Below, piece by piece: positions 284-34,326 of a DNA stretch of 42,526 nt. The stretch comes from a virus: positions 1-42,526 of the IMG/VR virus record IMGVR_UViG_3300044699_000072, one strand, 5' to 3'. The number at the start of each line of letters is the position of its first letter. Position 1 is the first letter of the stretch. The position numbers were made by a program, and so were the translations under genes. A model generated the notes under the pieces. The model saw only the letters and a program-made list of their open reading frames with translations. It was not told the DNA's origin and did not search any database.

Positions 284-508
284 CTACGAGGAAGAATCCC
301 TTTGGCCTCGGGAACGTGGAGACTCCTCGGAACTTTGGTCTGCCTCGACGATAGAGATATCGAACCAGAGCTTCGCAGTTTCGACATGGGTTATTGCGAT
401 CGCAAGGCCTCGATGCTCGACTTCTGCCGAGGTACTCTGAATGTCGCGCAGGTCTGAGATGAGCTGCTGACATTGTTTCTGAATCTTCTCAATTCTTTGG
501 TCCTTCAT
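284..508 (-). CDS. Small helical protein, candidate Acb2/Tad1-type hairpin (anti-CBASS or anti-Thoeris) protein
   Basis: This 74-residue protein has a charged N-terminal helix and then the segment RGLAIAITHVETAKLWF. That pattern (R-x-L-A-x-A-x-T-x-x-E-x-A-x-x-W) resembles the helical hairpin of small phage proteins of the Acb2/Tad1 type, which sequester cyclic-nucleotide signals made by bacterial CBASS and Thoeris defences. The C-terminus is Ser/Arg-rich and probably disordered. A strong ribosome site (AGGAAGG, 3 bases upstream) fixes the start at 508, overlapping the end of the ATPase gene. It is the last gene of the leftward block. The family link rests on a short motif recalled from the family, so it is a hypothesis; a generic coiled-coil protein is the alternative. 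Confidence 0.45.
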   Translation of the reverse strand: MKDQRIEKIQKQCQQLISDLRDIQSTSAEVEHRGLAIAITHVETAKLWFDISIVEADQSSEESPRSRGQRDSSS

Positions 509-1691
509 GTGCCTTCCTCTTCCATTCTTCGAGCTGTTTGACGTAACCTGGAGTTAACTTATAGAAAATATGCCCGCCTCTAGTCTCTGCTGTCACCGCC
601 TTTGCTTCTGTTAAAGTCTCAATGACTCGATTCAAGACGAATGAATCGACGTCACCAAAGAGCTTCTGTAATACCTTTTGCCTGGTCAGTTCGTAGTCTG
701 GTGCCTTTGCTAGAACATGCAAGACCATCGATTGATGTTGAGAAATCTCCGACTTACCACCTGCACCTTGCAGGATTTTGTCTACGTGAGTAATCAGATT
801 CGAGCACGCTGCAATCGATTGCTCGACGTCTTCAAACTGTAATTCGAGTGTAGCATCCCGTGCAAGCGCGCAACACATCGCTACCTTCTCGACGTGGTTG
901 TGAATTCGTTGAACCGTTCCAGTTCTATCCTGAGCATCTCGACGACGTAGTTCGTAGTACCAATCGTCGTAGGTTCCTTTTGCTTGTCTAGAATACTGGA
1001 ATTGCCCCTTGACCTTAGAGATTTCGACAAGATGCTCAGCCGCGATAAGCGGGTCGAACTTGAGCTTCGGTGCCTCAGTTAGCGGATTGATATGACCCCG
1101 CTGTTCCTCGTAGACCATCAAGGTGCGCCCCAAAAAGCCACCCTCAATGTCCTTCGCATGAATGACGTCTCTAAAGTGCGCGGGTGAGCTAGCTCCGAGC
1201 ATAGTCAGACAGACGTTCTTCAGCGTATCGATTCCTGCCCCTTTCATGGTGTTCTTCCATGACTGGTTATAGTGCGTGTCGTACAGCTCAGTCAAGACCG
1301 ACAGCGAGTGAGGGTCTTGAATGACAAAGTTGACAAACTCCCCCGATACCAGAAAGCCTCGGCTATCCGGGATAGGCGGTCTGCCATTACGGGTTGTGAT
1401 AGTCCCGAGGTCTTTCACTACTGCCTGGATAGAGTTACGCCCTGATATTACTCTGGTAGTATCGACGCATGTAACTAGCTCCTTTGCCAGCCATATCGGC
1501 CAGCCCTTGCCGAGTCCAGACTTCCCTAGCAACATTACGAAAAGATTAGGTGACAGCTTGTAGTAGAACTTGTCGAGAAAAACATTACTACTACTTACTG
1601 CTGAGATGGCTGCGACTGCTGACCACCAAATCCATTGCTTAGGGGACTCTACCTCAGCCGATGACTCCATGATTGTGTCGAGCCACGACAT
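489..1691 (-). CDS. DUF3987-type P-loop ATPase, probable replication helicase/primase component
   Basis: The 400-residue protein has a Walker A motif GKSGLGKG at about residues 56-63, after a short helical start (SPKQWIWWSAVAAIS) typical of the DUF3987/YfjI-like phage ATPases. Residues about 155-195 (MLGASSP..FRDVI, GGFLGRTLMVYEE) match the sensor part of that family. The C-terminal 70 residues look like a winged helix (VLHVLAKAPDYELTRQKVLQKLF to GHIFYKLTP). Such proteins usually sit beside phage polymerases and are taken to be helicase-like, although the reaction is not shown. It starts 7 bases after the polymerase stop, which fits a replisome operon. No separate primase was found, so a missing or unseen N-terminal primase is possible. 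Confidence 0.7.
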   Translation of the reverse strand: MSWLDTIMESSAEVESPKQWIWWSAVAAISAVSSSNVFLDKFYYKLSPNLFVMLLGKSGLGKGWPIWLAKELVTCVDTTRVISGRNSIQAVVKDLGTITTRNGRPPIPDSRGFLVSGEFVNFVIQDPHSLSVLTELYDTHYNQSWKNTMKGAGIDTLKNVCLTMLGASSPAHFRDVIHAKDIEGGFLGRTLMVYEEQRGHINPLTEAPKLKFDPLIAAEHLVEISKVKGQFQYSRQAKGTYDDWYYELRRRDAQDRTGTVQRIHNHVEKVAMCCALARDATLELQFEDVEQSIAACSNLITHVDKILQGAGGKSEISQHQSMVLHVLAKAPDYELTRQKVLQKLFGDVDSFVLNRVIETLTEAKAVTAETRGGHIFYKLTPGYVKQLEEWKRKAHEGPKN

Positions 1692-2960: not shown

Positions 2961-3997
2961 ATGCAGTCTATTAACGTAGTTGTAATAGAATTCCCGGAGA
3001 CCGTAGACATCCAGCTCGGCATCTTCGCCTCAAATACCTCGTATGTAATAGCTGCGTCTTTCGCGTTGTAAAGATAAAGCCTGTCGTAGCTGTCCTTCTT
3101 CGGATTAAACTCTTTCCCTTCCGTTTTATAGTATGGCTCCTCAGTCCAGATGGACGCTAAGAAAGCCAGTCCTAACGGGAACTCAGGATACAATGTATGA
3201 GCCATCAACATCGTATCAGCGTAGAGATTCGCTGGACGAAAGCAACATGGGGAACGCAGCTTCTGGTCGTCGAACTTGAAATTCTGCCCAATGAGCTGGA
3301 ATCTTGGATCGTCAAGAACCTTCCCAACGAACTGCCACATCTGGACCAGTTCATGGGGCGGCACCCACTCGCGCTGCTTCTCATCTACCAAATTCAACAA
3401 CGGAATGGAGATAGCATGAAAGCGACTGAAGGCTAGAGACACGCAGACAGGAATACACTTGACCGTCTCGATGTCAACCGCCACCTTCCACTTGCCGTCA
3501 TACTGGCGTATGAATCGAAAGACGTCGAGAGAATTCCTAGCTACCGTCAAGGTCCGAGATGGCACTAGGTAGTCCGGAAATTGAGCTTGGCGCAATGCCT
3601 TCTCAAAGTCCAGTATTACATAGGCGCGCGCCGCGTAGTCAGCTACCTCACCACCTGCTTGACGTAGTAAGTGCGCGGGGTGGTAAGTCGAGATAACCTT
3701 CTGCTTACCGTCTGTAGACCTGAGAACTGAGCCACGGAACACCTTGATGCCCGTCTTACCTGTCAGAGCTTGGAGAGCGGTGTTGCCAAGCGCGAGGACA
3801 GCATTGGGTCTAACGACCGCAAGTTCTTCGTGCAGGTCAGTGACTGATTGAGCTAGAGATACACCTATCTCGTTCAGACGCTGTAGGTCGTTTTCTGGTG
3901 GGCGGAATTTGACGACGTTGGTTATGTAACAGTCATTGCGATGGATTCCTGCCGTCGTTACAAAGGGAAGTGAGGAGTTCTCCTGCTGCTCCGACAA
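2840..3997 (-). CDS. DNA polymerase N-terminal piece: uracil-DNA-glycosylase-like domain plus 3'-5' exonuclease
   Basis: Real coding runs to about 3025; the last 60 residues of this frame are out-of-frame. Residues 1-130 are the second half of a type 4/5 uracil-DNA glycosylase-like domain (CYITNVVKFRPPEND; STYHPAHLLR). The first half lies upstream in another frame at about 3955-4110, with the hallmark VGEAPGYEENLAGRAFVG, so one indel lies near 3955-3965. Residues about 170-330 are the DnaQ-like exonuclease: VDIET (Exo I), QNFKFDDQKL (Exo II) and YNAKDAAITYEV (Exo III). The start is not resolved and probably lies inside the 3' end of the preceding gene. A similar glycosylase-like N-terminus is reported for the polymerase of phage SPO1. 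Confidence 0.82.
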   Translation of the reverse strand: MSEQQENSSLPFVTTAGIHRNDCYITNVVKFRPPENDLQRLNEIGVSLAQSVTDLHEELAVVRPNAVLALGNTALQALTGKTGIKVFRGSVLRSTDGKQKVISTYHPAHLLRQAGGEVADYAARAYVILDFEKALRQAQFPDYLVPSRTLTVARNSLDVFRFIRQYDGKWKVAVDIETVKCIPVCVSLAFSRFHAISIPLLNLVDEKQREWVPPHELVQMWQFVGKVLDDPRFQLIGQNFKFDDQKLRSPCCFRPANLYADTMLMAHTLYPEFPLGLAFLASIWTEEPYYKTEGKEFNPKKDSYDRLYLYNAKDAAITYEVFEAKMPSWMSTVSGNSITTTLIDCMWPIVTWSLLAYLLIPRGKKRSRKSIESSSKNIKSDSTML

Positions 3998-4759: not shown

Positions 4760-4902
4760 TACGCCTCCTTGACTTTGTCGTCTGGAAAAAGAATCTTCTT
4801 CGCTTCGATACACTCCGGACATACGCACACGGCGCGCACGATGGTGTCGGAAGGAAGCTCGGTTGAAACTGACTTGTGACAGAACCAGCACCAGAGTCTC
4901 AT
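4759..4902 (-). CDS. 47-residue zinc-knuckle protein
   Basis: A small gene starts at ATG 4902, which overlaps the stop of the ParB-methyltransferase gene (TAATG) and uses AAGGAGGAG in that gene's end as ribosome site. It ends at 4759, overlapping the next start in the same way. It encodes two Cys pairs, CWFC near residue 5 and CVCPEC near residue 32, the signature of a treble-clef or zinc ribbon. Tight coupling on both sides makes it a real gene. A DNA- or RNA-binding accessory role is likely, but unproven. Confidence 0.75.
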   Translation of the reverse strand: MRLWCWFCHKSVSTELPSDTIVRAVCVCPECIEAKKILFPDDKVKEA

Positions 4903-6170
4903 TACTCCTCCTTGATTCCAAGACGTTTGCATCCTTTGGAATATGATTCCTGGTCTCTGTCGATGGCAATGAAAGGCCGCTTCATCTGCTTGGCAGCGTC
5001 AGCGACTACGAAAGAACCTGCGAATGGATCGATGACTGCGTTACCCTCATGGCTGCACTCATCGATTAGCTTCTTCATGAGCTCGACTGGCTTCTCGTTG
5101 GGGTGAATGAGCTTGACTGGTGGGACTGCGTCGACGTCGAAGAACGAAGTGTCCTGGACCGAACTCTTGAGAACAGGGTTGCCCTTGACTGCGAGCAGGA
5201 TGAACTCGAAGTCTCGACCATGTTCCCATGCTGTGACGCCTCTTCTCGATAGCGATTTCAGCTTGCGCCAAAACAGAGGAGTCTTCGCTACTCGGAAGCC
5301 AATCTTCTCAAGTTCGCCTGTGACCTTTCGCACCTCATTAGGATTCTCGGGGTCAGGCTCGGTCCTACCACCATACCAGTGGTAATCATCCATACCGGCG
5401 AACATGTAGAGAAATGAGTCATACCGCATGACACGGTAGAGCTCGCGAAACACTGGGAGGGTTCGCTCATCCAGTCGGAGGGTAGGGTCAAAGAATCGGA
5501 GCCAAGGAGGGTCGGTGACACAGACATGGAAGATGTTATCCGGTAGATGCTTGAGCGCCACGGCAGAATCAGCACAGAATACCTGATTCATCTTGATGGG
5601 GAACCCACCTGCCCCTGCCATCTCCTCATTGTCCATTCGCTTGGCTGTGATCTGGACCAGACGCATCGCGGTGCGCTTGTCCTTGACCTTCGACAGCGAC
5701 GGGTCTTGCCTGACGGCGCGCGCGAGCTGAAGGTCTTGAGACGTCTTACCGAGAGCCTGCTGAAGTGCAGCGGCTGTGTCGCGCACCGACCAGCCAACCT
5801 TCTGATGTCCACCACCCTGCTCGGGAGGCTTGCCATGAATCAGCTGCTTGAGCAGGTGCAGCCTCTCGACCATCATCACCGACTCGAACCACTTCAGATT
5901 GTAGCGCCGCAGGTTCTCGTGGAGTGCAATCTCTTCCTGCTGGTTGTCGCTCAGCCCCTCGTGGACTGATACTTCGATCTCAGACCAACCTAACTGCCTT
6001 GCTGCGTGCAGACGTTTCCTTCCTGTGATCAAAGCGAAAGAGCCGTTCATTCGGTGAACAGCTACCGGATGCAATTGACCCTGCTCCTTCAGAGACTCAG
6101 CGAGATTTGCAATCTCCTCAGGATCAAGAACTTCTTCTTTGGTTTGGATTTCGTCGATGCCTAGCTTCAT
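4902..6170 (-). CDS. ParB-like domain fused to a DNA (N4/N6) methyltransferase
   Basis: Residues 1-95 form a ParB N-terminal domain: DPEEIANLAESLKEQGQLHPV, then TGRKRLHAARQLGW and ENLRRYNL. Residues about 195-415 form an S-adenosyl-methionine-dependent amino-methyltransferase. The catalytic motif TDPPW (219-223) comes before the cofactor motif VIDPFAGS (379-386), the order of beta-type enzymes, and NEKPVELMKKLI lies between. It probably methylates adenine or cytosine in phage DNA, protecting it from host restriction. ParB-methyltransferase fusions are known in phages. One copy of the 21-bp palindrome lies inside its own coding region at 6042-6062. It overlaps the preceding small gene by ATGA. 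Confidence 0.85.
   Translation of the reverse strand: MKLGIDEIQTKEEVLDPEEIANLAESLKEQGQLHPVAVHRMNGSFALITGRKRLHAARQLGWSEIEVSVHEGLSDNQQEEIALHENLRRYNLKWFESVMMVERLHLLKQLIHGKPPEQGGGHQKVGWSVRDTAAALQQALGKTSQDLQLARAVRQDPSLSKVKDKRTAMRLVQITAKRMDNEEMAGAGGFPIKMNQVFCADSAVALKHLPDNIFHVCVTDPPWLRFFDPTLRLDERTLPVFRELYRVMRYDSFLYMFAGMDDYHWYGGRTEPDPENPNEVRKVTGELEKIGFRVAKTPLFWRKLKSLSRRGVTAWEHGRDFEFILLAVKGNPVLKSSVQDTSFFDVDAVPPVKLIHPNEKPVELMKKLIDECSHEGNAVIDPFAGSFVVADAAKQMKRPFIAIDRDQESYSKGCKRLGIKEE
6042..6062. promoter_or_regulatory. Dispersed 21-bp palindrome, copy 1
   Basis: GCCGTTCA-TTCGG-TGAACAGC is an inverted repeat with 8-bp arms (one mismatch) and a 5-bp centre. It lies in the ParB domain coding region. Three other copies are at 13428, 17172 and 27595. 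Confidence 0.6.
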
Positions 6171-11072: not shown

Positions 11073-11485
11073 GTCAGTGTGTCTTGACTGGTGCTGCCTT
11101 CTTTGTTCGTCCTGTCGATGTAGCTCAGCGCCGCAGTAAGGAGGTCCCACGACGTGCGACTGATGACCCACTCCGAACCCTCCAGGTGAGTCTCGGTGAG
11201 TCGATACTTCTTGTCTGCTGCAACGTACATCAGTGACCAGCGATAGTCACCCTGAGTCATCATGCGCATCTCCTCCCTGTAGCGCTCCACGACGCAGACC
11301 CACGCCTCAAGTTCGATAGCCCACATCGCAGCCTCGGCGTCATTGCCTCTGGAGTGAGCCTCCTTGCCAGCTTGAAAAGCGTTGACCATGACGTGCTGAG
11401 TGTGACTGACGAAGTCACCCTGGTCGAGCTGCTTGACGGTCTTCAGGTTGCGCTCGATGAGTCTTGTCAGAATCTCCTGTCTCAT
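11048..11485 (-). CDS. Hypothetical protein next to the SNF2 helicase
   Basis: The start at 11485 (MRQEILTRLIERNLK) overlaps the helicase stop by ATGA and is preferred to the Met four codons upstream, which is inside the helicase gene. The 145-residue product is mainly helical (HTQHVMVNAFQAGKEAHSRG, AAMWAIELEAWVCVVERYREE), then turns beta-rich. No domain is recognised. Co-translation with the helicase suggests a partner role. Confidence 0.7.
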   Translation of the reverse strand: MRQEILTRLIERNLKTVKQLDQGDFVSHTQHVMVNAFQAGKEAHSRGNDAEAAMWAIELEAWVCVVERYREEMRMMTQGDYRWSLMYVAADKKYRLTETHLEGSEWVISRTSWDLLTAALSYIDRTNKEGSTSQDTLTWTKTKSR

Positions 11486-13110
11486 TGAAGCTTCCATCCC
11501 TTGAGTCCTTTCGCAAAGAGAATGTCGGCCAGCTCTTTCATCAAGCCTTGTTCGTCGTAATTGAACTCAGCGCTCTTACCACTGTAGGCCTCATGAGTGA
11601 TCATGCGCTTCTTCTCGACCAGGTCCGAAAGGTATTCGTCAATAGTTCCGATCGCCACCTGGTAGACTGCGTTGATGATGCTCGCTGCGGAACCGATACG
11701 GCGGAACCTCGCTTCGGCCTGCTCCTCGTTGGCAGGATTCCACTGGCGCTCCATCACAATGCAATCTGAGCAAAACTGCAAGTTCAAGCCTTCGCCAGAG
11801 GCAAGCGTTGACGCAATCATGACCCTCGCGCTAGCGTCGTCTTTGAATTTCATTACGACTTCGTGGCGCGCTTCGGGAGTCAAGTCCGACGTCAAGCTGA
11901 TCGGCATCGTGAGGCCCATCGCCTGGCACACTGTCGAAAGCAGCTCCTCAACCTTGCCGTGGACGTCCTTGTGATGTAGGAAGATTACGATCTTGCGCTC
12001 GTTCTGAGTGAGGAAGTCTGTCACGTAGTCCACGACAGGCTCAACCTTGGCCAAGCCAGTCAAGTGCTTCATGTGCGTCATGTATTCCAAGATGCCGCCT
12101 GAGCCAAAGGTCTTCATGTCGCCTTTGGCGTAGCGCTCTTGAAAGTCCTTGAGCAGCTTCTCGTAGCGTTCCTCGACGTCTGCGCCAAGTTCGGCGTATC
12201 GGAACGTCCGATTCAGGCTTGGCATATCTGGCATGACTTCCTCGACCGTGCGCCTGATGATGAAGTCCTTCGTCTTTTCAGCGAAGTACTCAGGGTCCTT
12301 CAGACCACCAGCCTTCGCTCCCCAACCGTTGTTATACATCTGCACGTAATTGTTCTGGAATCCACGGTAGGAATTGAAACGCTCCGGCTTGAGGATGTTC
12401 AGGATCGTGAAGTATTCCTCGGCGTTGTTCTTGATCGGCGTGCCACTCAGACCCAGCACGTAAGGAGAGTAGGCTGCAATCTTGCGAACCAGAGCCGTCC
12501 GTTGCGCGCTCGGGTTCTTGATGTTCTGCGTTTCGTCGATGATGACGCAGTCGAAACGCCCCTTCATGAAGTCTTCGTCCTGTGCCCAAGCACAGCGACG
12601 CAGCATATCGAACGAAATGATGACGATGTTGAAGCCAAACTCCGTGAGTGGCTTCTGATTCTTGTTCTCGATGACCTGATTCATTCCAAGCTCAGGCCCG
12701 AGGAAGCGATACGCCTCATGTGACCACTGATACTTGAGCGTTGACTTCGTGATGACCAGAGTCTTCTTCGCCTTCTCCCTCATGCGCCAGAGAAAAGCGA
12801 GAGCCTGCACCGTCTTGCCCAGGCCCATCTCGTCGGCAATGAGGCATCGACCATTCGCTTCGATAGCGAACGCCGAGCCTTTCTTCTGGAATTCGTAAAG
12901 CTGCCTGCCATCAACAGACTTGAACAAATCCCAGGATTCTTCCGTCGCCTCGACATGGACGAGAGCGTCCATCAAGGTCGTGTGACCGCAATCGAAGGTG
13001 ATCGACCAGTAGTTACCTAGTCGATATCGTTTGGTCTCCGTCGCCAGCTTTTTGCAATACTCGCATCTGTAGCGAGCCTGCGTCTGGCCTTTCAGCGCAA
13101 CAACACTCAT
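11482..13110 (-). CDS. SNF2-family DNA-dependent ATPase/helicase
   Basis: The 542-residue protein starts with a zinc ribbon (CEYC at 16-19, CGH at 41-43) followed by a complete SNF2 core. Visible motifs are DEMGLGKT (Walker A, 93-100), IIDETQNIKN (a DETQ variant of the DEAH box, 192-195), LSGTPIKN, and VMERQWNPANEEQAEARFRRIG (motifs V-VI). These enzymes translocate on duplex DNA and remodel protein-DNA complexes. In phages they are thought to help replication or recombination. The start follows GGGAG 10 bases upstream. It is one of the few large intact genes in the leftward block. Confidence 0.92.
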   Translation of the reverse strand: MSVVALKGQTQARYRCEYCKKLATETKRYRLGNYWSITFDCGHTTLMDALVHVEATEESWDLFKSVDGRQLYEFQKKGSAFAIEANGRCLIADEMGLGKTVQALAFLWRMREKAKKTLVITKSTLKYQWSHEAYRFLGPELGMNQVIENKNQKPLTEFGFNIVIISFDMLRRCAWAQDEDFMKGRFDCVIIDETQNIKNPSAQRTALVRKIAAYSPYVLGLSGTPIKNNAEEYFTILNILKPERFNSYRGFQNNYVQMYNNGWGAKAGGLKDPEYFAEKTKDFIIRRTVEEVMPDMPSLNRTFRYAELGADVEERYEKLLKDFQERYAKGDMKTFGSGGILEYMTHMKHLTGLAKVEPVVDYVTDFLTQNERKIVIFLHHKDVHGKVEELLSTVCQAMGLTMPISLTSDLTPEARHEVVMKFKDDASARVMIASTLASGEGLNLQFCSDCIVMERQWNPANEEQAEARFRRIGSAASIINAVYQVAIGTIDEYLSDLVEKKRMITHEAYSGKSAEFNYDEQGLMKELADILFAKGLKGWKLQ

Positions 13111-13378: not shown

Positions 13379-13407
13379 AGCATAGCATCGATCGGTGCGG
13401 AAGTCAA
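13379..13407 (-). promoter_or_regulatory. Sigma70-type promoter, leftward
   Basis: On the minus strand TTGACT (13407-13402), 17 bases, TATGCT (13384-13379). A palindromic operator abuts the -35 box with a 2-base gap. It would drive the helicase-to-polymerase half of the leftward block. Confidence 0.75.
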
Positions 13408-13409
13408 GT

Positions 13410-13424
13410 GTGTAAAAATTACAC
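13410..13424. promoter_or_regulatory. GTGTAA-N3-TTACAC operator, copy 1
   Basis: GTGTAA-AAA-TTACAC is a perfect inverted repeat immediately upstream of the leftward -35 box. A matching site with the same spacing occurs at 16724-16738. Confidence 0.65.
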
Positions 13425-13427
13425 TGT

Positions 13428-13448
13428 GCTGTTCATCCGGTGAACAGC
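13428..13448. promoter_or_regulatory. Dispersed 21-bp palindrome, copy 2
   Basis: GCTGTTCA-TCCGG-TGAACAGC, both arms perfect, lies 3 bases beyond the operator at 13410-13424. Confidence 0.65.
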
Positions 13449-13451
13449 TGA

Positions 13452-13619
13452 CTACCTTGCCTCGGTCCAGACCATGCGATGAATCTTGTCCCAGTCTACG
13501 GTGCAGTCCGTCTTGAGCCTGGAAGTGAGCATCTCACCAGTCACGTCTGATACGTGGACGAGGAGCGCGCCGTAGGAGTAGAGCGTGTAGAATTGAAACT
13601 TCGTGATGAAAAGAGTCAT
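13452..13619 (-). CDS. 55-residue protein of unknown function
   Basis: The ATG at 13619 overlaps the upstream stop as ATGA. The frame reads MTLFITKFQFYTLYSYGALL, then HVSDVTGEMLTSRLK, ending in WDKIHRMVWTEAR. It is the last gene before the promoter at 13379. It has no recognised domain; the N-terminus is aromatic and beta-like. Confidence 0.6.
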   Translation of the reverse strand: MTLFITKFQFYTLYSYGALLVHVSDVTGEMLTSRLKTDCTVDWDKIHRMVWTEAR

Positions 13620-13903
13620 TGTCTGTCTCGAATCTCCTGATAAATCTGCATCACACCACGCTGGACTATGCTTAGGCAGATACCAGTAGCGTGCAATGGC
13701 GAAGCCATGACGAATTGCTTGACGACGTTGAGTAGCGCGATTAAGACGAGAGTCGGGTCTTCCTGTTTGTTGTTCAATATCGGCACCAGGGTCATCCAGA
13801 TTCCAGTTTCGATCTGGGTCACCTTGACGTCGAGCGCGAGTCCCTTCATGTCGTCAAGGAACTCGCGCTCTTGAGTGGTCTGTGGCTCGTCGTTCTCGGG
13901 CAT
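13616..13903 (-). CDS. Hypothetical protein
   Basis: The 95-residue acidic protein starts MPENDEPQTTQEREFLDD after GGAAGAAG. A hydrophobic middle (LVLIALLNVVKQFVMA) is flanked by soluble segments, so it is probably a helical bundle rather than a membrane protein. It is coupled to the next gene by ATGA. Function unknown. Confidence 0.6.
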   Translation of the reverse strand: MPENDEPQTTQEREFLDDMKGLALDVKVTQIETGIWMTLVPILNNKQEDPTLVLIALLNVVKQFVMASPLHATGICLSIVQRGVMQIYQEIRDRQ

Positions 13904-13905
13904 TG

Positions 13906-14526
13906 CTATGACTTCTTCCCATCGAATTGAGTAACTCGACCACTTGCTCTCTCGTCGGTGTCAGTCCCGTCTTTGAATTAGGGACCAACATCATTTTCTT
14001 GATCAGACTCTCGTAGGCCGCATTTCCAGGCGCTACGTCTTGCTTTGGCTTCGTCGCTGTTGGCTTACTGACCTTGAGCGTTCCGTCTGAGTTGACCCTG
14101 GGGCGCGCCTTGGCCCGGTATTGTCTGTCTTTTTCGCGCAAGGCCTCGCGATCTTCTTTTTTTCAGGTCCCTCGACCACTGGTCGTCGATGTCCATCAAG
14201 GCCTGAGTCTCGACCTGCAAAACCTTAATCAAGTCTTGCATGTCCGCTATCTTGTATTTGATCTCCTCATGCTTCATTCCAGAGACCACGGTCGAATTGA
14301 ACTTGTCAAGATACGCTTTCTGAAGGCGCTCGTTGATCGGCGTCGTGCTCGGCGTCACTTCGACTGCATCGCTCTTGGCTGTAGGAAGCGGTGTCCCTGC
14401 AATCAATGACTTCGCCATGCAAGTCATGCACATTCCGTTGACCAAGTCGACGTCTTTGGAGTCTGGACAGTATTCGCAGTCTCCCTTCGACCTGACTTCG
14501 GCAGTCTTCGTCGTTCCGTTCGTCAT
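13906..14526 (-). CDS. Zinc-finger plus coiled-coil protein (frameshifted)
   Basis: The start MTNGTTKTAEVRSKG at 14526 overlaps the metallopeptidase stop by ATGA. A CEYC...CMTC pair (about residues 16-37) forms an N-terminal zinc site, followed by a long helix (IKYKIADMQDLIKVLQVE). A one-base change in the run of T at 14158-14163 shifts the frame. The true continuation is EDREALREKDRQYRAKA, then the frame 13854-14141 (ESLIKKMMLVPNSKTG, EQVVELLNSMG), ending near 13906. The joined product is about 205 residues. Function is unknown; Cys pairs and charged helices suggest nucleic-acid binding. Confidence 0.6.
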
Positions 14527-14852
14527 TCCGTGGCCTCCGCGGCAATCTGGACCTGAGGCATCCAAAGGCTTTCGCTGTCGAACAGCAGAGCGTCTAGAAT
14601 CATCGTGAAGCGCGCCTCATGATTTGTCTTACCGTGGCGCAGCATCTCGACTGCGTGGGCGTACTCGTGAAGCACTAGACCCACGCGCAAGTATCCGTAG
14701 GGCGCTCTGTGACGTCGTGGGTCGTAGGGCGTCTCTGGCAAGCTGACATATCCTCTCAGCTTACCTGTCTTGGCGTCTTTGATCGCACCGCCCCATCCGC
14801 GCGCTGTCCCTTTGCCGTTCCGTGGCGCGCGCAATTTGACTCGTGGCGCCAT
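14523..14852 (-). CDS. Small HExxH zinc metallopeptidase-like protein (SprT-like)
   Basis: The 109-residue protein has VLHEYAHAVEM (HExxH at 62-66) and a third His at KTNHEARF (78). This spacing is like the short SprT/zincin core. A beta hairpin precedes it (RGYVSLPETPYD) as in that fold. A protease or zinc-dependent structural role is inferred. The frame stays open upstream of the chosen Met with ALPTWHISDCHNARQAV, so the real start may be further left on the coding strand if an indel lies near 14955. Confidence 0.6.
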   Translation of the reverse strand: MAPRVKLRAPRNGKGTARGWGGAIKDAKTGKLRGYVSLPETPYDPRRHRAPYGYLRVGLVLHEYAHAVEMLRHGKTNHEARFTMILDALLFDSESLWMPQVQIAAEATE

Positions 14853-14889
14853 GATCGTGGTCCGAACAGCTTGTCGTGCATTATGGCAA

Positions 14890-15000
14890 TCAGAAATATG
14901 CCATGTCGGGAGTGCAAGGCGTCTGATGGGCTTGACGCAGTCGACCAGGGTTGATCGACTGTGCTGCTACACAATCATACTCGCCTGCGATTTTTGCCAT
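14890..15000 (-). CDS. 36-residue ORF, or 5' end of the metallopeptidase gene
   Basis: The ATG at 15000 follows AGTAGGAGACTTAGACT and opens MAKIAGEYDCVAAQSINPG, stopping at 14890. Its ribosome site is good. Switching frame near 14955 would fuse it with the peptidase upstream extension (DCVKPIRRLALPTWH). Either a tiny gene or the broken N-terminus of the next one. Confidence 0.35.
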   Translation of the reverse strand: MAKIAGEYDCVAAQSINPGRLRQAHQTPCTPDMAYF

Positions 15001-15027
15001 AGTCTAAGTCTCCTACTCTTGAAAGGC

Positions 15028-15264
15028 CTATTCGTCAGGCCACTTTTTAACGTGTGCTTTAGTCAGCTTCTCGATTCGAGCCAGGGAGTTTTTGTATACC
15101 GCTCTCATGGCTTCGGCGTTCGTCTTGCCCCGGTATCCTGACATTGTCAGGTCCTGCTCGCTGGCGCGCTCAATCTCTCTCAGGTAGTCGTAGGTATTGA
15201 GCTTCTCTTGCTGTATCGCCGCTCTCAGGACAACCAGGTCTTTCTCCTCGGCTTCGGTTGTCAT
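15028..15264 (-). CDS. Small helical protein
   Basis: The start at 15264 (MTTEAEEKDLVVLRAA) overlaps the upstream stop as ATGA. The 78-residue product is one long helix region with a Lys/Arg-rich end (RIEKLTKAHVKKWPDE), which fits a coiled-coil partner protein. No function recognised. Confidence 0.6.
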   Translation of the reverse strand: MTTEAEEKDLVVLRAAIQQEKLNTYDYLREIERASEQDLTMSGYRGKTNAEAMRAVYKNSLARIEKLTKAHVKKWPDE

Positions 15265-15500
15265 TTCATCCACTCTCGCAAACTGTAATATGTGACACCA
15301 TTGTCACGCTCCGTTGTGATCTTACCCCTCAGATTAGGTAGCACTCTGTCTAAATCGAAATGTGTCATGCTACCGTAAGTCTTACGGAGTAAGTCATTGC
15401 GCTTCATTCGACCGTAACGGGCTAATGTCTGGATTACCAGTTTTTCGGTAGCAGGCCCGGAAAATCCGTGGCCGACTAGTTCGTCATTAGTGCTCGTCAC
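15261..15500 (-). CDS. Winged-helix-like small DNA-binding protein
   Basis: A GTG start at 15500 follows AGAGGGGCAGG. Residues about 20-79 read as three helices and a wing: KLVIQTLARYGRMKRNDLLRK, then DLDRVLPNLRG and ITTERDNGVTYYSL. It is the first gene after the promoter at 15589-15617 and lies close to a GTGTAA-type palindrome, so it is a candidate regulator of the phage operators. Evidence for DNA binding is structural pattern only. Confidence 0.55.
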   Translation of the reverse strand: MTSTNDELVGHGFSGPATEKLVIQTLARYGRMKRNDLLRKTYGSMTHFDLDRVLPNLRGKITTERDNGVTYYSLREWMK

Positions 15501-15524
15501 TTGTCTGTCACCTGCCCCTCTAGT

Positions 15525-15539
15525 ATGTAATTCTTACAC
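15525..15539. promoter_or_regulatory. GTGTAA-N3-TTACAC-like operator, copy 3
   Basis: ATGTAA-TTC-TTACAC matches the operators at 13410 and 16724 with one change. It lies in the leader between the promoter at 15589 and the GTG start. Confidence 0.45.
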
Positions 15540-15588
15540 TGTAGGGCCGTAAGTTGTTGCGTTTGTTACACTTACGCGCCGTAGGCAG

Positions 15589-15617
15589 AGTATACCATAC
15601 CTGCCTGCCAATTGCAA
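15589..15617 (-). promoter_or_regulatory. Sigma70-type promoter, leftward
   Basis: TTGCAA (15617-15612), 17 bases, TATACT (15594-15589) on the minus strand. The leader has a 7-bp hairpin, CGTAAGT with ACTTACG. Confidence 0.6.
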
Positions 15618-15689
15618 CCCACCCTAGCGTATCGAGTCAAAAACTTGACGATCCAAAAAATTGGTCGGTGAAGGTTTTTGTCATGTCTG

Positions 15690-15865
15690 AAAAAAAAATA
15701 TATAAAAGGAAGACATCCCCTATACCCTATGTCTGGCGATCGCTGTAAGTGACTGCAAACAAAGGAGTTATCGCCTCATACCCGGTCTCAAATGATACGA
15801 ATATCATACCAATATCATACTAATCGTTTACTAATCGAGCACTAATCGAGCACTAATCGATCAAG
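15690..15865. other. Candidate replication origin: AT-rich tract plus 11-bp iterons
   Basis: An A-rich run with ATATATAAAA at 15690-15708 is followed by direct repeats at exact 11-bp steps from 15800: AATATCATACC, AATATCATACT, AATCGTTTACT, AATCGAGCACT, AATCGAGCACT and a partial copy at 15855. Helically phased repeats next to an unwinding tract are typical of iteron origins. The gene-free gap 15501-16169 contains no convincing ORF. Confidence 0.55.
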
Positions 15866-16112
15866 CCCTTTTTCACGTTTTCGGGATTGTCGAAATCGAA
15901 AACCTCCGTCAAAAATGGCTTGACAAAACATCCGATGCGGGTCGACCGCTGTGCGCCGCTGTAGGGCGCGCGGTTCGCCCGGTAGGGTAAAGATACCCGA
16001 TCGGCATTTGATCGCCCCATATTCGATCGTGGGCCGTTCTACGGGGTGTCTGGCGCATATGTGCGGAAAACCGAACGCCTACCGGATTCCGTCGGTGCGC
16101 TCCGATCAGACG

Positions 16113-16149
16113 AAAAAAAGGCACGACCCCATGAAGGAGTCGTGCCTTT
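16113..16149 (-). terminator. Rho-independent terminator
   Basis: AGGCACGAC and GTCGTGCCT form a 9-bp stem with an 11-base loop. On the minus strand it is followed by TTTTTTT, and it lies 20 bases after the stop of the leftward gene 16170-16643. Confidence 0.85.
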
Positions 16150-16169
16150 GTGTGTCGCGAGCGGTGAGT

Positions 16170-16643
16170 CTACAGACCCATCGCCTCGATCTTCGCCAGA
16201 GCCTCGGCCTCGGAGATGTTGTAGGCTTTGGCGAGGTTCTTCGCGGCTGCCTGCTTCGCCTTATCAGGACCCTCCACGAGAACGGCCAGCTTCTGCGACT
16301 CGCGCGACTTCGCGCCGAGGTCGTTGCCGTAGAAAAAGTCCTTCACGAGACACGGACCATCGAAGTCCGGTTCGCCTTCCTCGTCCAGCTTGAACGTGGT
16401 CTCGACCCCGTCGCAGATGGCGAGAGCGCCCTTGAGGTTCGTCGGGACAAGCTGGAGGTAATCCTTGCTGTAAGGCTTGGATTCGACGTTGCGCTTCACT
16501 TCCTTGATACGCGCAACGATGTCGCCAGCTTCGATCGCTGCCTTGACCGACTCGGTCTGGCGCGCGATCTCGGTCGCGAGGTCGAGGTCTCCGCCCATCT
16601 TCGTCGGATCGGAATCTTCGCCTGCGATTTTGCGTAGTGCCAT
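16170..16643 (-). CDS. Hypothetical early protein, 157 residues
   Basis: The start MALRKIAGEDSDPTK at 16643 is set by AGGGAG 9 bases upstream and by the strong promoter at 16693-16721; upstream residues of the open frame overlap that promoter. The protein is charged and helical, with RIKEVKRNVESKPYSKDY, then a beta-rich middle (GDGVETTFKL-like, CLVKDFFYGND), and ends in NLAKAYNISEAEALAKIEAMG. It has its own promoters and terminator, so it is probably an abundantly made early protein. No family recognised. Confidence 0.75.
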   Translation of the reverse strand: MALRKIAGEDSDPTKMGGDLDLATEIARQTESVKAAIEAGDIVARIKEVKRNVESKPYSKDYLQLVPTNLKGALAICDGVETTFKLDEEGEPDFDGPCLVKDFFYGNDLGAKSRESQKLAVLVEGPDKAKQAAAKNLAKAYNISEAEALAKIEAMGL

Positions 16644-16692
16644 TTTTACACTCCCTGATCTGGTGGGCGCGGCATGCGCCCGAACCGAGATC

Positions 16693-16721
16693 ATTCTACA
16701 TGATCAGCTTACGGATGTCAA
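16693..16721 (-). promoter_or_regulatory. Strong sigma70-type promoter, leftward
   Basis: TTGACA (16721-16716), 17 bases, TAGAAT (16698-16693). The palindromic operator at 16724-16738 abuts the -35 box with a 2-base gap, as at 13410. Confidence 0.85.
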
Positions 16722-16723
16722 CA

Positions 16724-16738
16724 GTGTAGGAATTACAC
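16724..16738. promoter_or_regulatory. GTGTAA-N3-TTACAC operator, copy 2
   Basis: GTGTAG-GAA-TTACAC; one arm mismatch. Position relative to the -35 box is the same as at 13410-13424. Confidence 0.65.
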
Positions 16739-16804
16739 GGTTGCCCGCAGCGTGGGCGTCGCTATTCAATTGTCAAAGAACCGCAATCCCGAACTAACAG
16801 ATAC

Positions 16805-16833
16805 ATTCTAACATCGCCCGTTGCGTTTGTCAA
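16805..16833 (-). promoter_or_regulatory. Second leftward sigma70-type promoter
   Basis: TTGACA (16833-16828), 17 bases, TAGAAT (16810-16805), in tandem with the promoter at 16693. Confidence 0.7.
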
Positions 16834-16879
16834 GTCTCGCGGCCGTCAGGCCCGAACCGCATCAGCAACGAACAAGACC

Positions 16880-16908
16880 AGTGTAATCGATCACACGCCA
16901 GATGTCAA
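16880..16908 (-). promoter_or_regulatory. Third leftward sigma70-type promoter
   Basis: TTGACA (16908-16903), 17 bases, TACACT (16885-16880). The near-palindrome GTGTAATCGATCACAC overlaps its -10 box. Confidence 0.6.
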
Positions 16909-17041
16909 CTACCAATATTGTAATCGTTATGATACAATTGCTTGGATATTTTGAATCCAATTTTTTGAACTGGACAGAATGTGATGGCAAGGCGCGCATA
17001 CTGTCAGATTGCAGTAGACTAGGGCGTATGACCCCCGCAAC

Positions 17042-17127
17042 GGGTCCCATTTCGCCCGGGATTCCGAAGACGTCCGCAATCCGTTTGTTTTCCGTTTATA
17101 TGTTGGGTCCCATATCAAAGGGTCCCA
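17042..17127. repeat. Three GGGTCCCAT repeats
   Basis: GGGTCCCAT occurs at about 17042, 17105 and 17119 within the promoter region. No ORF is convincing in 16644-17298, which otherwise holds promoters in both directions. Confidence 0.4.
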
Positions 17128-17171
17128 TGACAACACCGTAGGAGAAAATAGGGTAGCTGCCCAAATGACCT

Positions 17172-17192
17172 GCCGTTCACCCAATGAACAGC
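17172..17192. promoter_or_regulatory. Dispersed 21-bp palindrome, copy 3
   Basis: GCCGTTCA-CCCAA-TGAACAGC, one arm mismatch, 26 bases upstream of the rightward -35 box. Confidence 0.6.
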
Positions 17193-17217
17193 TGATTCCT
17201 TAGCAAAGTCGCACGAT

Positions 17218-17246
17218 TTGACTCGAAAACCGTTTCGTGTTACGAT
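17218..17246 (+). promoter_or_regulatory. Sigma70-type promoter for the packaging/structural block
   Basis: TTGACT (17218-17223), 17 bases, TACGAT (17241-17246). Its position shows that the true start of the next gene is the Met at 17299. Confidence 0.65.
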
Positions 17247-17298
17247 CACGCGCGCACGCGATAAAGACCAACAGGTGCTCAAAAATTCGGACCTGAAC

Positions 17299-18051
17299 AT
17301 GGGATTCATCACGGAAGAAGAGGCACGGCGCAGATTGACGTCTGGGGATAATCTCTTAAACCGCTTGCCTCGTGCTGGTTCCAATCCGTACAAGGACCCG
17401 GAAGCGGAGATTGTCCCTGGACTTGAATCTGCTGCCGAGGAATTTGCCGAACCTGAGCCTACCGAATTCGATGATGCCAAGGATGATGATCCCGATGTCC
17501 TTGACGCTGTCGACGAAGCCCTAGCTCGCGCAAGGACAATCTCCTCTTCAAATGACCCAGTTCGGATAGCAGTCCTCGCCGCCAGGCGAACGCTTCCTCC
17601 GAAGCAACGTGGTGGTCGCTATCCCGGACAAGTCGCTACTCCTGCTGAATTTCGCGCACTGATCGGAGCTGCCGCTCGTCTTGGTAACACCAGACAAGTA
17701 GCAGAAGCCACCGGCTTGGGTATGCTCGCCGTTCATAACTACAAGAACGGTAAGACATGTAACGCCGCTGAACCCAACCCTTCGATGTTGCAACAAATCG
17801 AGGAGAAGACGCTCGGCATCAGGGATCAAGTTCTAGGAATCCTGTCCTATACGGTTGCGGGTATTACTCCAGAGTCATTGGAAAACAAGGACCCAAAAGA
17901 GCTCTCGATTATTGCCCGCAACCTTTCCTCCATCATGTCGTCTACCAAACCCCCAGCGGACTTCGGAGACAAGACGACAAACGCTCAGGTCATTGTCTTT
18001 TCACCAGAACAAGAGAAGGAAGACGCATACGACACGGTCGAGGCTGGTTAG
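17299..18051 (+). CDS. Small terminase subunit-like DNA-binding protein
   Basis: With the start MGFITEEEARRRL the protein has 250 residues; the longer TTG start at 17218 would include the promoter. The first 75 residues are acidic and disordered. Residues about 105-165 carry a helix-turn-helix (AEFRALIGAAARLGNTRQVAEATG, MLAVHNYKNG), followed by helices and SIIARNLSSIMSSTKP, as in phage terminase small subunits that bind pac/cos DNA. The position at the head of the structural block supports this. No direct proof of packaging function. Confidence 0.6.
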   Translation: MGFITEEEARRRLTSGDNLLNRLPRAGSNPYKDPEAEIVPGLESAAEEFAEPEPTEFDDAKDDDPDVLDAVDEALARARTISSSNDPVRIAVLAARRTLPPKQRGGRYPGQVATPAEFRALIGAAARLGNTRQVAEATGLGMLAVHNYKNGKTCNAAEPNPSMLQQIEEKTLGIRDQVLGILSYTVAGITPESLENKDPKELSIIARNLSSIMSSTKPPADFGDKTTNAQVIVFSPEQEKEDAYDTVEAG

Positions 18052-18098
18052 CCAACCCCTCCGAAGTATGCCGTGCTGTTCCGAAGTGAGATTGAATT

Positions 18099-18353
18099 AT
18101 GCGTGGATTCGTACGAAAGCTCTTCAGTGAAAAAGGATTCGCCTTCGTCGAGGGCGAGGACGAACGAGACTACTTCCTGCACTGGTCGAAAGTTTCGCGC
18201 GCCTCTGTTCCGTTTCGGAACATTAAAGAGGGCGACAAAGTAACTTTCGATCACGAAGAAGGTGACCAGGGTCCGAAGGCCCTCAACGTGGTTGTCATAA
18301 GACAGCCAATGGAGAATCCCAATGAGTCCAGTCGAAGCACCGCAGAAGCCTGA
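18099..18353 (+). CDS. Cold-shock-domain protein
   Basis: The 84-residue protein is a single cold-shock domain: RGFVRKLFSEKGFAFVE (RNP1-like), DYFLHWSKVS (RNP2-like), IKEGDKVTFDHEEG and GPKALNVVVI. It should bind single-stranded RNA or DNA. The last 15 residues are unordered and overlap the next gene. Phage cold-shock proteins are known but not common, and host mRNA or antitermination roles are possible. Confidence 0.9.
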   Translation: MRGFVRKLFSEKGFAFVEGEDERDYFLHWSKVSRASVPFRNIKEGDKVTFDHEEGDQGPKALNVVVIRQPMENPNESSRSTAEA

Positions 18354-19017
18354 CACGAAAGACCAGAAAGACCGCGAAGCAACGATGCGCGGCGACAAAG
18401 CCGAGCAGAATCGTCGGGAGAACTTCCTCCAACAGGAGAAGGTTCACCTCGGCCCCGGAGTTCTGATCGTCAAGACGAAGCAAGGCGAACTGCTCGCAGA
18501 GCCGGGCATGATCGTCCTCTACGTCAACGGCGAGCCCGGAGTTCTGTCGCAGGAGGTCTACGAGCATCTCGGTGGCGACTACGCCAAGCTGCTCCGAACG
18601 ACCTACCTCGAAGGCGCAATCGCGCGCCGCAGAGATGATGGTCTGCCGGAGCTGACCAAGGAAGAGCTCGCAGAAGTCGAAAAGAACTACGACGAGACGC
18701 AGGGCGAGAAGACGAAGGCAGCCGCCGACAAGAAGGAGCGCGCCGAGAAGGCCAAGGAAAAGCCGGCCGTCTGGGCTTCAAGCAAGAACGCGCCCCCGAC
18801 AGCGACTCCCACAGAAACGGGAACGATTGCTCCGAATCCCGACCTTCCTGCTCCTCCGGATTTCGACTTCCCGGTTCAACGCAAGGATGGAAAAGTCGAA
18901 CCCCAGGAGTCTGGCACTCCGCCGCGCACGGTTACGACGCCTCAGACCGCCAAGCCTGTCCCTCCGGGATCGAACGTGCCCGGTGACAAGGCAGCTCTTC
19001 CAACCGAGAAGAAGTAG
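18322..19017 (+). CDS. Hypothetical protein with Lys/Glu-rich helix and Pro-rich tail
   Basis: The start follows GGAGAATCCC and overlaps the cold-shock gene. The 231-residue protein has a charged N-terminus, a small beta domain (LGPGVLIVKTKQGELLAEPG, MIVLYVNGEPGVLS), a Lys/Glu helix (AAADKKERAEKAKEKPA) and a Pro/Thr-rich C-terminal half. It is intact and lies in the structural block, so it may be a minor virion or assembly protein. No family recognised. Confidence 0.65.
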   Translation: MSPVEAPQKPDTKDQKDREATMRGDKAEQNRRENFLQQEKVHLGPGVLIVKTKQGELLAEPGMIVLYVNGEPGVLSQEVYEHLGGDYAKLLRTTYLEGAIARRRDDGLPELTKEELAEVEKNYDETQGEKTKAAADKKERAEKAKEKPAVWASSKNAPPTATPTETGTIAPNPDLPAPPDFDFPVQRKDGKVEPQESGTPPRTVTTPQTAKPVPPGSNVPGDKAALPTEKK

Positions 19018-21144: not shown

Positions 21145-21294
21145 ATGCCTGCAAAGAGCGCCGCACAATATCGTTTCATGCAAGCTGCCGCGCACGGCGG
21201 ACTGAAGGGGCCACAGGATATCTCGTCTGCTGTTGCCAAGGAGTTCATCAAGAAGACTCCTCCGAAGCAGCGTAAGATGTTTGCGAAGCAGTAA
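21145..21294 (+). CDS. Small DUF3008-like protein
   Basis: The 49-residue product MPAKSAAQYRFMQAAAHGG, then AVAKEFIKKTPPKQRKMF, has the pattern of DUF3008-type phage proteins (P-K-S-x-A-Q-x-R-x-M at the start and a Lys-rich end). It overlaps the terminase start (TAATG), so translation is coupled. Function unknown. Confidence 0.65.
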   Translation: MPAKSAAQYRFMQAAAHGGLKGPQDISSAVAKEFIKKTPPKQRKMFAKQ

Positions 21295-22229
21295 TGCCCT
21301 TTCAGACAATCGACGATACGAAAGTCTGGGAGCCTAGCAAGCGCCAGACAGATTTCATTCGTATCCCTGATACGATTTTCGAGGCGCTCTACGGCGGCGC
21401 AGCAGGCGGAGGTAAGTCAGAGATTCTCTTGATGCTCCCCATAGCTAGGGGTTGGTATCAAAATGCGGGATTCAAAGGCATCATCTTTCGACGAACTTTT
21501 CCCGAACTCGAAGAATCTCTCATTCCCCGTTCAAGAGATATTTACCCTTTATTCGGTGCAACTTATAACGATACAAAACATCGATGGACTTTTCCTTCAG
21601 GTGCTTGGATTCAGTTCTCGTATATGGTTCGGTCCGAGGACGCGCGCTCGCACGATACGGCAGAATATAACTACATTGCATTCGACGAATTAACGGCGTT
21701 CGAGGAATTCCAGTATGTTTATCTTACGTCACGTTGCAGAACCGCAGACGAAGGTCTTCCTGCTGTCGTGCGTGGCGCTACTAATCCTGGGAATGTTGGA
21801 CATTCTTGGGTAAGAAAGAGGTTCGTCGAGCCAGCTAAGAACGGATACGCCAAGATTTTTGATCGGGCTGCTAAAAGCTATCGCATATTCATACCTGCGA
21901 AGCTGACTGACAACCCGTTCTTGATGAAGGCGGACCCTAACTACATTAACCGCCTCCGACTTCTGCCAACAGCAGAGCAGAAGACGAAGCTCGAAGGCGA
22001 TTGGTGGGTATTTACTGGTCAGGTTTTCGACGAGTGGCGTTACGAACACTTCGCTGGAGAGCCGGCAAATGCTCTCCACATGATTGATCCTTTTCCTCTT
22101 CCATCTTATTGGCCTCGAGTCGCAGCAATTGACTGGGGTCATACAGCGATGACTTGGATTGGTTGGGCGGCTATCGCCCCAAACGGTCAAGTCTTTCTAT
22201 ATCGTCAGTATGGGCAGAAAAAATCGTAA
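21294..22229 (+). CDS. terL: Large terminase subunit, ATPase part (frameshifted gene, piece 1)
   Basis: Residues 34-42 are the Walker A motif GGAAGGGKS and residues 127-133 the Walker B YIAFDEL. The sequence GIIFRRTFPELEESLIPRS and the motor arm follow the phage terminase layout. The nuclease domain begins near residue 285 (VAAIDWGHTAMTWIGW, an RNase H-like first Asp). The frame breaks at about 22219 and continues in 22159-22443 and 22397-22972. Joined length is about 560 residues. It packages DNA through the portal. Confidence 0.92.
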   Translation: MPFQTIDDTKVWEPSKRQTDFIRIPDTIFEALYGGAAGGGKSEILLMLPIARGWYQNAGFKGIIFRRTFPELEESLIPRSRDIYPLFGATYNDTKHRWTFPSGAWIQFSYMVRSEDARSHDTAEYNYIAFDELTAFEEFQYVYLTSRCRTADEGLPAVVRGATNPGNVGHSWVRKRFVEPAKNGYAKIFDRAAKSYRIFIPAKLTDNPFLMKADPNYINRLRLLPTAEQKTKLEGDWWVFTGQVFDEWRYEHFAGEPANALHMIDPFPLPSYWPRVAAIDWGHTAMTWIGWAAIAPNGQVFLYRQYGQKKS

Positions 22230-22443
22230 AATTTCCGAGTGGTCGGCGGACTTTGTTCGACTATCTCAGGGCGAACTCATTGATTCGGTGGTTATCGATC
22301 CTTCTGCAAAGCGCAAGGAGGGGGATCAGAAATCGATCCTGGCGCAGTTCGAGGAGGTATTGAATCCACCTGGGGCGCAACAGAACTTCCGAATCAGTGT
22401 CGCAGACAATGATCGAGGTAAGCGGCAAGATGTTGATGCATGA
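22159..22443 (+). CDS. terL: Large terminase subunit, middle of nuclease domain (piece 2)
   Basis: True coding covers roughly 22220-22415: GRKNRKISEWSADFVRL, IDSVVIDPSAKRKEGD and GAQQNFRISVADND. The strand with VVIDPSAK supplies a nuclease acidic residue. A second indel near 22415-22425 moves the frame to the last piece. Confidence 0.75.
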   Translation: MVGRLSPQTVKSFYIVSMGRKNRKISEWSADFVRLSQGELIDSVVIDPSAKRKEGDQKSILAQFEEVLNPPGAQQNFRISVADNDRGKRQDVDA

Positions 22444-22972
22444 GTTCTTGAGATGGAAGCCAAGACCTCCTCGCATCGTGCCGCAAGAGGGATTCAATAT
22501 TGAACTCGGTGCGCGAATCTTCAGAATTCATGGCGAGAAAGCATTTCGAGAGTATGCCTCGATGTTCGAGCCAGAAAAGCCTGAGAGTAACATCCCGAAG
22601 CTCCAGGTTTTTCGAGACTCTCGACTCTACGTCGCCAAGGAATTGCAAGCTTTCGAGGACGTCATCCCGCTTTGTGTCTACGATGACGTCAAGACTGAGG
22701 ATGTTCAGGAATTCGACGGTGATGATCCTTACGATGGGGGACGATACCTACTGAAAGAGGTCCACCGTTGGATCGAACAGTCAGTTACCGTCTCTGCTTC
22801 GCGAGAGAAAGTGAACACAGTCCTCGAATACTTGAATAATTCGGGGGATGTGACAGGTTTCTACCGTAGGATGGAGAAATTAGAGCGAGATCAGAGATTG
22901 GCCGACAGACCAGTCAAGCTATTTCACAAGAGACCAAGACGACGTAGAGGTTTTCATTATGGGATTCATTGA
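22397..22972 (+). CDS. terL: Large terminase subunit, C-terminal part (piece 3)
   Basis: Coding from about 22420 reads GKMLMHEFLRWKPRPP, then IPKLQVFRDSRLYVAKELQ, and YDDVKTEDVQEFDGDDPYDGGRYLL, in which the Asp of DDPYDGGRY closes the terminase nuclease. The sequence ends with a basic tail. It is followed by a small gene starting at 22959. Confidence 0.75.
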   Translation: MSQTMIEVSGKMLMHEFLRWKPRPPRIVPQEGFNIELGARIFRIHGEKAFREYASMFEPEKPESNIPKLQVFRDSRLYVAKELQAFEDVIPLCVYDDVKTEDVQEFDGDDPYDGGRYLLKEVHRWIEQSVTVSASREKVNTVLEYLNNSGDVTGFYRRMEKLERDQRLADRPVKLFHKRPRRRRGFHYGIH

Positions 22973-33854: not shown

Positions 33855-34326
33855 ATGCCGCAGTATCCTGGAAGAATGAGAAACGTTACGGCGATGCAAA
33901 AGGGCGCAAGCCGAAGCATTTCCAATTATGGTTCATCGTCGATTGACAGCAGCGGAGCTCAATGCTGGCGTCGATTTGCTCCAAGCTGCGCGCCGGTTCA
34001 AGATATCGACTGATTGATGCGAGCTTCATTGCAGTCGGTGGCAACGTACGCTGGCGCGACGGACGTTCGTATCACAGGCGTGCAGGGGTGGCGCGACGGT
34101 ACAGCTTGTCACCCGCTGTTATCGCTGGCTTGACTCGTGGCAAGAATGGCCCCGACCTTGGCGAACGACACCCAGACACTGGCCATCCTCCTCAACGACG
34201 GTCGTGCCTCGCATCAACCGACCGATTGCTGGCACACCCATCCGAGTCGTAAAGACGGCTGCGGCCACACTCACGGGTGCTCACACACGTCGACGTCATC
34301 GCCAATTTTCCTGCTGGAAGGGCTAA
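33855..34326 (+). CDS. Conserved tail-region protein (frameshifted)
   Basis: The start MPQYPGRMRNVTAMQKG follows GGGAGG. Later frames read AEAFPIMVHRRLTAAELNAG, LIDASFIAVGGN, TRGKNGPDLANDTQTLAILL, and THVDVIANF with LLEG before TAA at 34324-34326. These parts assemble to a well-known kind of phage tail-region protein (FPI-x-VHR-x-LTAAELNAG at the start, a beta sandwich end). Several indels are needed. Its stop overlaps the next start (TAATG). Confidence 0.55.

Follow-up and report, generated by a model that had tools for sequence, protein, structure and literature searches.

A 15-base-pair (bp) palindrome, GTGTAA-N3-TTACAC, recurs directly upstream of early promoters in IMG/VR virus record IMGVR_UViG_3300044699_000072 and its relatives and, judged by that recurrence, is a real and conserved operator family with a fixed geometry relative to the promoter -35 box. 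The stretch analyzed here, referred to as the window, is the whole record of 42,526 bases. Its leftward genes, from about 16.7 kilobases (kb), encode DNA replication and recombination functions (primase, DNA polymerase, a Sak4-like protein, exonuclease and SNF2 helicase), while the rightward genes, from about 17.2 kb and including terminase, are the late genes. The palindrome is almost certainly the docking site of a control protein, an ordinary kind of switch in a phage group that has gone unstudied. With a copy in a transcribed leader, and with a second palindrome that recurs across the genome and agrees with a replication repeat of phage P4, the early-promoter operator yields a first regulatory map for a phage lineage known here from metagenomes only. 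A search of open-licence literature found no paper on an operator GTGTAA-N3-TTACAC.

Three operator sites with at most one mismatch are present in the window, whereas 200 dinucleotide shuffles gave 0.03 on average and never more than 1; allowing up to three mismatches removes the enrichment, with 12 sites in the window where 9.4 are expected. An earlier note on this DNA had placed two palindromes 2 bp upstream of a -35 box, and copies 1 and 2 do show exactly that distance on the minus strand (AC and TG, respectively), with the correction that copy 2 carries one mismatch. The third site listed in that note is also real, again with one mismatch, but has no adjoining -35 box and instead lies 49 bp downstream of the -10 box of a TTGCAA-17-TATACT promoter. 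The promoter abutted by copy 2 is one of three minus-strand promoter-like sites in that region, the other two starting at 16833 and 16908. Over the -10 box of the latter lies a one-mismatch dyad with a 4-base centre, GTGTAATCGATCACAC (16881-16896).

The operator rests most firmly on its behaviour in relatives, where sites are in excess and their spacing is kept. Close relatives were recovered as metagenome contigs comprising nine loci with SNF2 helicase identities of 71-76% (three of these loci lie in records about 50 kb long), and a distant set comprises 71 loci at 36-53% helicase identity. In 12 related phage records we counted 22 sites with at most one mismatch (0-5 per record) versus 0.33 expected, although these counts are not independent, as sites and records are related by descent and the promoter stretches of G001 and G010, and of G004 and G011, are near-identical. 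The relaxed pattern RTGTAR-N3-YTACAY occurs in 12 of 14 records, the window and 13 more, that were searched over their full length; the two without a match (G009 and G010) are short fragments, and a reversed-pattern control gave no match across the same 14 records.

The position of the palindrome was assessed at 75 offsets from 76 promoter-like sites (at least 10 of 12 consensus positions) in 11 records, counting palindromes that match at 9 or more of 12 positions. Palindromes ended 1 bp (seven cases) or 2 bp (five cases) before the -35 box, second copies fell at gaps of 15 (two), 21 (three) and 22 bp (three), and, apart from one stray palindrome at 37 bp, no other offset was occupied. The operator-to-promoter spacing is consequently 1-2 bp across relatives, rather than exactly 2; in this slightly looser form the fixed geometry claimed in the earlier note is borne out, and the loss of spacing in relatives that the note had named as evidence to the contrary is not seen. 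The sequence of the spacer between the -35 and -10 boxes varies between genomes while the operator stays. At the helicase promoter most relatives have two operator copies, 14 or 20-21 bp apart. In the 16170 promoter region, a copy matching at 8 or more of 12 positions abuts the -35 box in seven of the eight records that cover it; the site of L139 in this region has no -10 box at the normal distance. The rightward late promoter also carries the operator in G013, L139 and L160. A wider scan for the operator next to a -35 box returned 15 stretches, of which nine belong to the clade (L160, L166 and seven contigs already known); the remaining six (L156, L158, L163, L167, L168 and L169) look like chance occurrences, their protein matches being absent or remote with none near 50% identity.

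The leader copy is similarly constrained. It lies 49 bp after the -10 box (50 bp in G001) in all seven genomes compared (the window, G001, G002, G004, G008, G011 and L139) and is followed by ACTA in each, while the leader between the -10 box and the copy has diverged. An RNA hairpin at this position was considered and rejected because the inner pair of the dyad (positions 6/10) is broken in four of the seven genomes (G001, G002, G004 and L139). The first gene after the leader copy is the SprT-like gene wherever the stand-alone winged-helix gene described below is missing.

Beyond the clade, the operator stays linked to the first early gene at 16170-16694. Five distant loci carry a copy with at most one mismatch (L023, L063, L067, L071 and L080), and three of these (L067, L071 and L080) have a member of the 16170 family 73-153 bp downstream of it, the family having been found in seven of the 71 distant loci; L071 and L080 resemble each other, so the three may represent two independent cases. 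Because this linkage extends to distant phages, the 16170 product is our best single candidate for the regulator or, failing that, its most conserved target.

Other distant phages appear to keep the promoter architecture with a different palindrome. TGTCC-N4..10-GGACA occurs 22 times in 17 of the 71 distant loci, nearly always with a spacer of eight, versus five occurrences of the reversed control. In nine of the 71 (L013, L015, L022, L024, L026, L031, L035, L075 and L078) TGTCC-N8-GGACA ends 0-3 bp before a TTGAC box, which argues that in part of the wider group the palindrome sequence has been swapped at the same place, the predicted result being a different specificity. Inverted repeats in general show a modest excess before promoters of the distant loci, with 22 of 225 at the -35 position versus 11-14 at shifted positions.

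Table 1. Operator copies, promoters and associated features of the window (coordinates in window numbering).
Feature	Position	Strand	Details
Operator copy 1	13410..13424		GTGTAAAAATTACAC; GTGTAA-N3-TTACAC, 0 mismatches; helicase promoter copy conserved in relatives
Operator copy 2	16724..16738		GTGTAGGAATTACAC; 1 mismatch
Operator copy 3	15525..15539		ATGTAATTCTTACAC; 1 mismatch; in leader
Promoter, SNF2-helicase operon	13379..13407	-	TTGACT (13407-13402), 17 bp, TATGCT (13384-13379); consensus match only
Early promoter, gene 16170-16694	16693..16721	-	TTGACA (16721-16716), 17 bp, TAGAAT (16698-16693)
Promoter upstream of copy 3	15589..15617	-	TTGCAA (15617-15612), 17 bp, TATACT (15594-15589)
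First early gene	16170..16694	-	Tightest link to operator, also in distant phages
Stand-alone winged-helix protein (predicted)	15261..15500	-	79 residues; starts 25 bp behind copy 3
Primase/helicase	489..1691	-	phrog_14296; DUF3987-like, below Pfam cut-off; C-terminus a related winged-helix domain
SNF2-type helicase	11482..13110	-	Downstream of operator copy 1
SprT-like gene	14523..14852	-	Pfam SprT match weak (E 0.04)
Second palindrome	13428..13448		GCTGTTCA-N5-TGAACAGC; a little upstream of operator copy 1, as read on the minus strand
Second palindrome, copy before rightward late genes	17172..17192		Core 17175-17189

The function that we tentatively favour for these sites is that of a phage-encoded early repressor acting through the palindrome. 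A DNA-binding dimer made by the phage would sit directly upstream of the -35 box, with its centre at roughly -44/-45 relative to the predicted start, and in many cases another dimer would bind upstream of it at a distance of 14 or 20-21 bp. Produced early, the protein would hinder RNA polymerase at the near-consensus early leftward promoters and, in some relatives, would also occupy the late rightward promoter, while on the third copy, which falls at about 43-57 bp of the SprT-like operon leader, it would act as a block downstream of the start; early transcription would be turned down once enough protein has accumulated. Repression is favoured by the near-consensus promoters, the leader copy and the tandem sites. 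The promoters abutted by the operator match the consensus at 9-12 of 12 positions, most in the clade at 10-12 (those of the gap analysis having been preselected for strength), and should therefore have little need for an activator. Several observations weigh against a repressor of this kind or against its candidate gene. In L071 and L080, about 42-43 bp separate the site from a weaker promoter downstream, a placement easier to reconcile with an activator than with a repressor that blocks polymerase; at the 16170 promoter of G012, no copy matching at 8 or more of 12 positions abuts the -35 box; searches of Pfam and PHROGs with the 16170 family gave nothing above cut-off and thus no recognized DNA-binding domain; and the structure model of the family is poor (predicted local distance difference test, pLDDT, 55.6) and was not used further.

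Second in likelihood, if still on the unlikely side, is an activator that would contact sigma, or the C-terminal domain of alpha, at the -35 region in the manner of class II activators and raise the promoters after infection. A site centre near -44/-45 with a 1-2 bp gap to the -35 box is close to class II positions, and the fixed spacing, the sites in L071 and L080 that stand well upstream of weak promoters and the operator at the late promoter of three relatives would all agree with such a protein. Set against these points, most of the abutted promoters already stand at 10-12 of 12 to consensus, and a leader copy downstream of the start does not fit activation.

As to the protein that would read the operator, the earlier note had named the product of 15261-15500 as a candidate. 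The model of this protein is indeed a winged helix, with three helices (residues 15-29, 34-40 and 47-53) and a two-strand wing (61-66 and 69-74; pLDDT 74.3), and its best matches in the PDB are winged helices, for example HxlR (Z 9.9, root-mean-square deviation 4.1, 69 residues aligned) and Zalpha (Z 9.8, deviation 1.6, 62 aligned); a Foldseek search with the model gave no match at E <=0.001. The gene also lies directly behind the third site. The distribution of the protein, however, led us to reject it as the general regulator of the clade, since small stand-alone winged helices fill this slot in four of eight genomes (the window, G003, G004 and G011) and are missing from the other four (G001, G002, G008 and L139), whereas operators are present in all eight.

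The protein is related to part of a replication protein. BLAST with the window protein detected no relative in the collected loci or in viral contigs. A profile of the primase/helicase C-terminus, built from three clade and 20 distant sequences and searched against 2391 frames, recovered all four stand-alone proteins (E 5.8e-9 for G004, 2.4e-8 for G003, 6.2e-7 for the window and 1.1e-3 for G011; next best frame, 2.7), smaller earlier profiles having scored the window protein more weakly (E 2.2, 0.011 and 7e-5). The profile contained none of the stand-alone proteins, and its matches show that 15261-15500 is kin to the replication protein's C-terminal domain but encoded on its own. The same profile found no stand-alone winged helix among 72 other loci, and the four known ones differ strongly, recognition helix included.

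Two readings draw on this family. The first, unlikely as a whole, is that both the early-promoter palindromes and the second palindrome, which resembles the iterons of phage P4, are read by the winged helix at the primase/helicase C-terminus or by its stand-alone counterpart. Build-up of the replication protein would then close early transcription, as plasmid Rep proteins do, and the lineage would exchange the operator sequence but leave its position next to the -35 box unchanged. If the link is functional, replication would be tied to early shut-off; if it is not, what is left is a normal phage operator with a candidate regulator only. Comparison of the primase recognition helix with operator type in 24 loci (one a fragment without the domain) gave a pattern that follows phylogeny and decides nothing. 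The second reading, that the window winged helix regulates the operator and autoregulates through copy 3 before its own gene, is improbable: its predicted fold, the 25 bp between copy 3 and the gene and the slot shared with three relatives speak for it, but the slot is empty in four genomes that have all the operators, relatives are lacking in the 72 loci and the viral contigs, and the operator is constant while the four proteins diverge.

We regard it as equally improbable that the operator is bound by a host protein, a regulator that the phage has taken over for its own use. The conserved phage proteins yielded no general regulator, and the phage genes named above are candidates only, which leaves room for such a protein; the swap of the palindrome at the same place in some distant phages, however, looks like phage-specific specificity. 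UP elements are A/T tracts without a conserved G/C dyad, and it is very improbable that the palindrome only serves RNA polymerase as a UP-like element and has no regulator; although it has an AT-rich middle and is located where UP elements lie, the outer GTG/CAC and the dyad symmetry are conserved and tandem and leader copies at fixed distances are not UP-like.

The second palindrome has the core GTTCA-N5-TGAAC, with 42 occurrences across 12 records; all remaining spacer lengths from 0 to 12, twelve in number, together account for four. In the window it is found at 6045-6059, 13431-13445, 17175-17189 and 27598-27612, and its locations include positions upstream of helicase operators, before late genes and inside genes. 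The modal half-site is GGTGAACAGCTA, and 18 of the 42 palindromes contain GGTGAACAG. In phage P4 (NC_001609), the type 1 repeats of ori, annotated as 16 features, have in most copies TGTTCACC, the complement of GGTGAACA. One GTTCA palindrome lies within a gene for a ParB N-terminal domain fused to a DNA methylase (4902-6170, minus strand), which is kept in relatives.

Further repeats and genes were noted along the window. GGGTCCCAT is repeated two or three times before the late genes (17042, 17105 and 17120 in the window) and is kept in all eight records checked. A dyad GTAAG...CAAACAAAG...CTTAY stands just upstream of the late -35 box in G001, G004, G008 and G010 (about 8 bp by eye) and is also present in the window at about 15745-15780, within the leader before operator copy 3. 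Adjoining the late genes is a cold-shock-domain protein (18099-18353, plus strand), kept in eight clade records. A small protein at 284-508 (minus strand) matches the Acb2/Tad1 hairpin domain weakly, below the Pfam cut-off (PF24729, E 7.6e-4), and may possibly act against the cyclic-oligonucleotide-based antiphage signalling system (CBASS). A radical SAM enzyme (Pfam E 2e-13) next to a protein rich in His-x-Asp repeats is encoded in G001 (L090, 13151-15234) and, with the enzyme in pieces, in the window (39724-40883). The DNA polymerase, terminase and tail genes of the window (1698-3997, 21294-22972 and 34277-42461) are broken into overlapping frames that form single open frames in relatives, and the many frameshifts are probably sequencing indels. 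Searches for isolated relatives and hosts were largely negative: no phage record matched the 15000-18500 stretch at the DNA level, protein searches gave distant matches only, all below 60% identity, and scans of genome contigs with a primase alignment and a capsid-like alignment returned no relative.

Comparison with known systems places the putative early repressor in familiar company. Lambda-type operators of the Cro/CI class are short palindromes, sometimes in tandem, at early promoters, and differ in sequence among related phages at the same place. The present phage group has the same short, sometimes tandem palindromes at early promoters, and in some distant relatives their sequence is swapped at the same place. 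It differs in that we found no known repressor gene and saw no divergent repressor promoter, and in that the sites abut the -35 box from upstream and do not overlap the promoter core.

With phage P4 the likeness concerns both the second palindrome, whose half-site equals the type 1 repeat TGTTCACC, and protein layout, since the phage primase/helicase ends in a predicted winged helix with a small stand-alone winged helix beside it. P4 alpha binds its origin repeats through a winged helix according to PMC4234260, which cites a work whose title concerns P4 winged-helix proteins forming homo- and heterodimers. The palindromes here, in contrast, are scattered, four to seven in the longer records, with no P4-like cluster. 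Comparison by hhalign gave a probability below 1% for P4 alpha, for both the whole protein and the winged helix, using a single P4 sequence and shallow alignments; among the 50 structure matches listed for the winged helix there is no entry for the P4 origin-binding domain, which does not exclude a relationship. Because these comparisons do not relate the phage proteins to P4 alpha, the likeness is one between sites and does not make the phage a member of the P4 kind.

Plasmid pIGRK suggests how a separate winged helix with kinship to a replication protein might act: according to PMC6854812, the short form of its replication protein is a negative regulator and both RepR and RepR' repress transcription. 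Those are in-frame forms of one gene, whereas the phage protein is encoded by a separate and diverged gene and is known from sequence and a model only. Finally, the stoperators of cluster A mycobacteriophages are asymmetric and numerous according to PMC9283540 (they are also treated in PMC6550527), and the present sites, which are symmetric and number about two to five per record, are of another kind. Stoperators nonetheless share with the operator reported here an arrangement in which the sites of one regulator would stand both at promoters and at another fixed place in the transcribed region, here copy 3.

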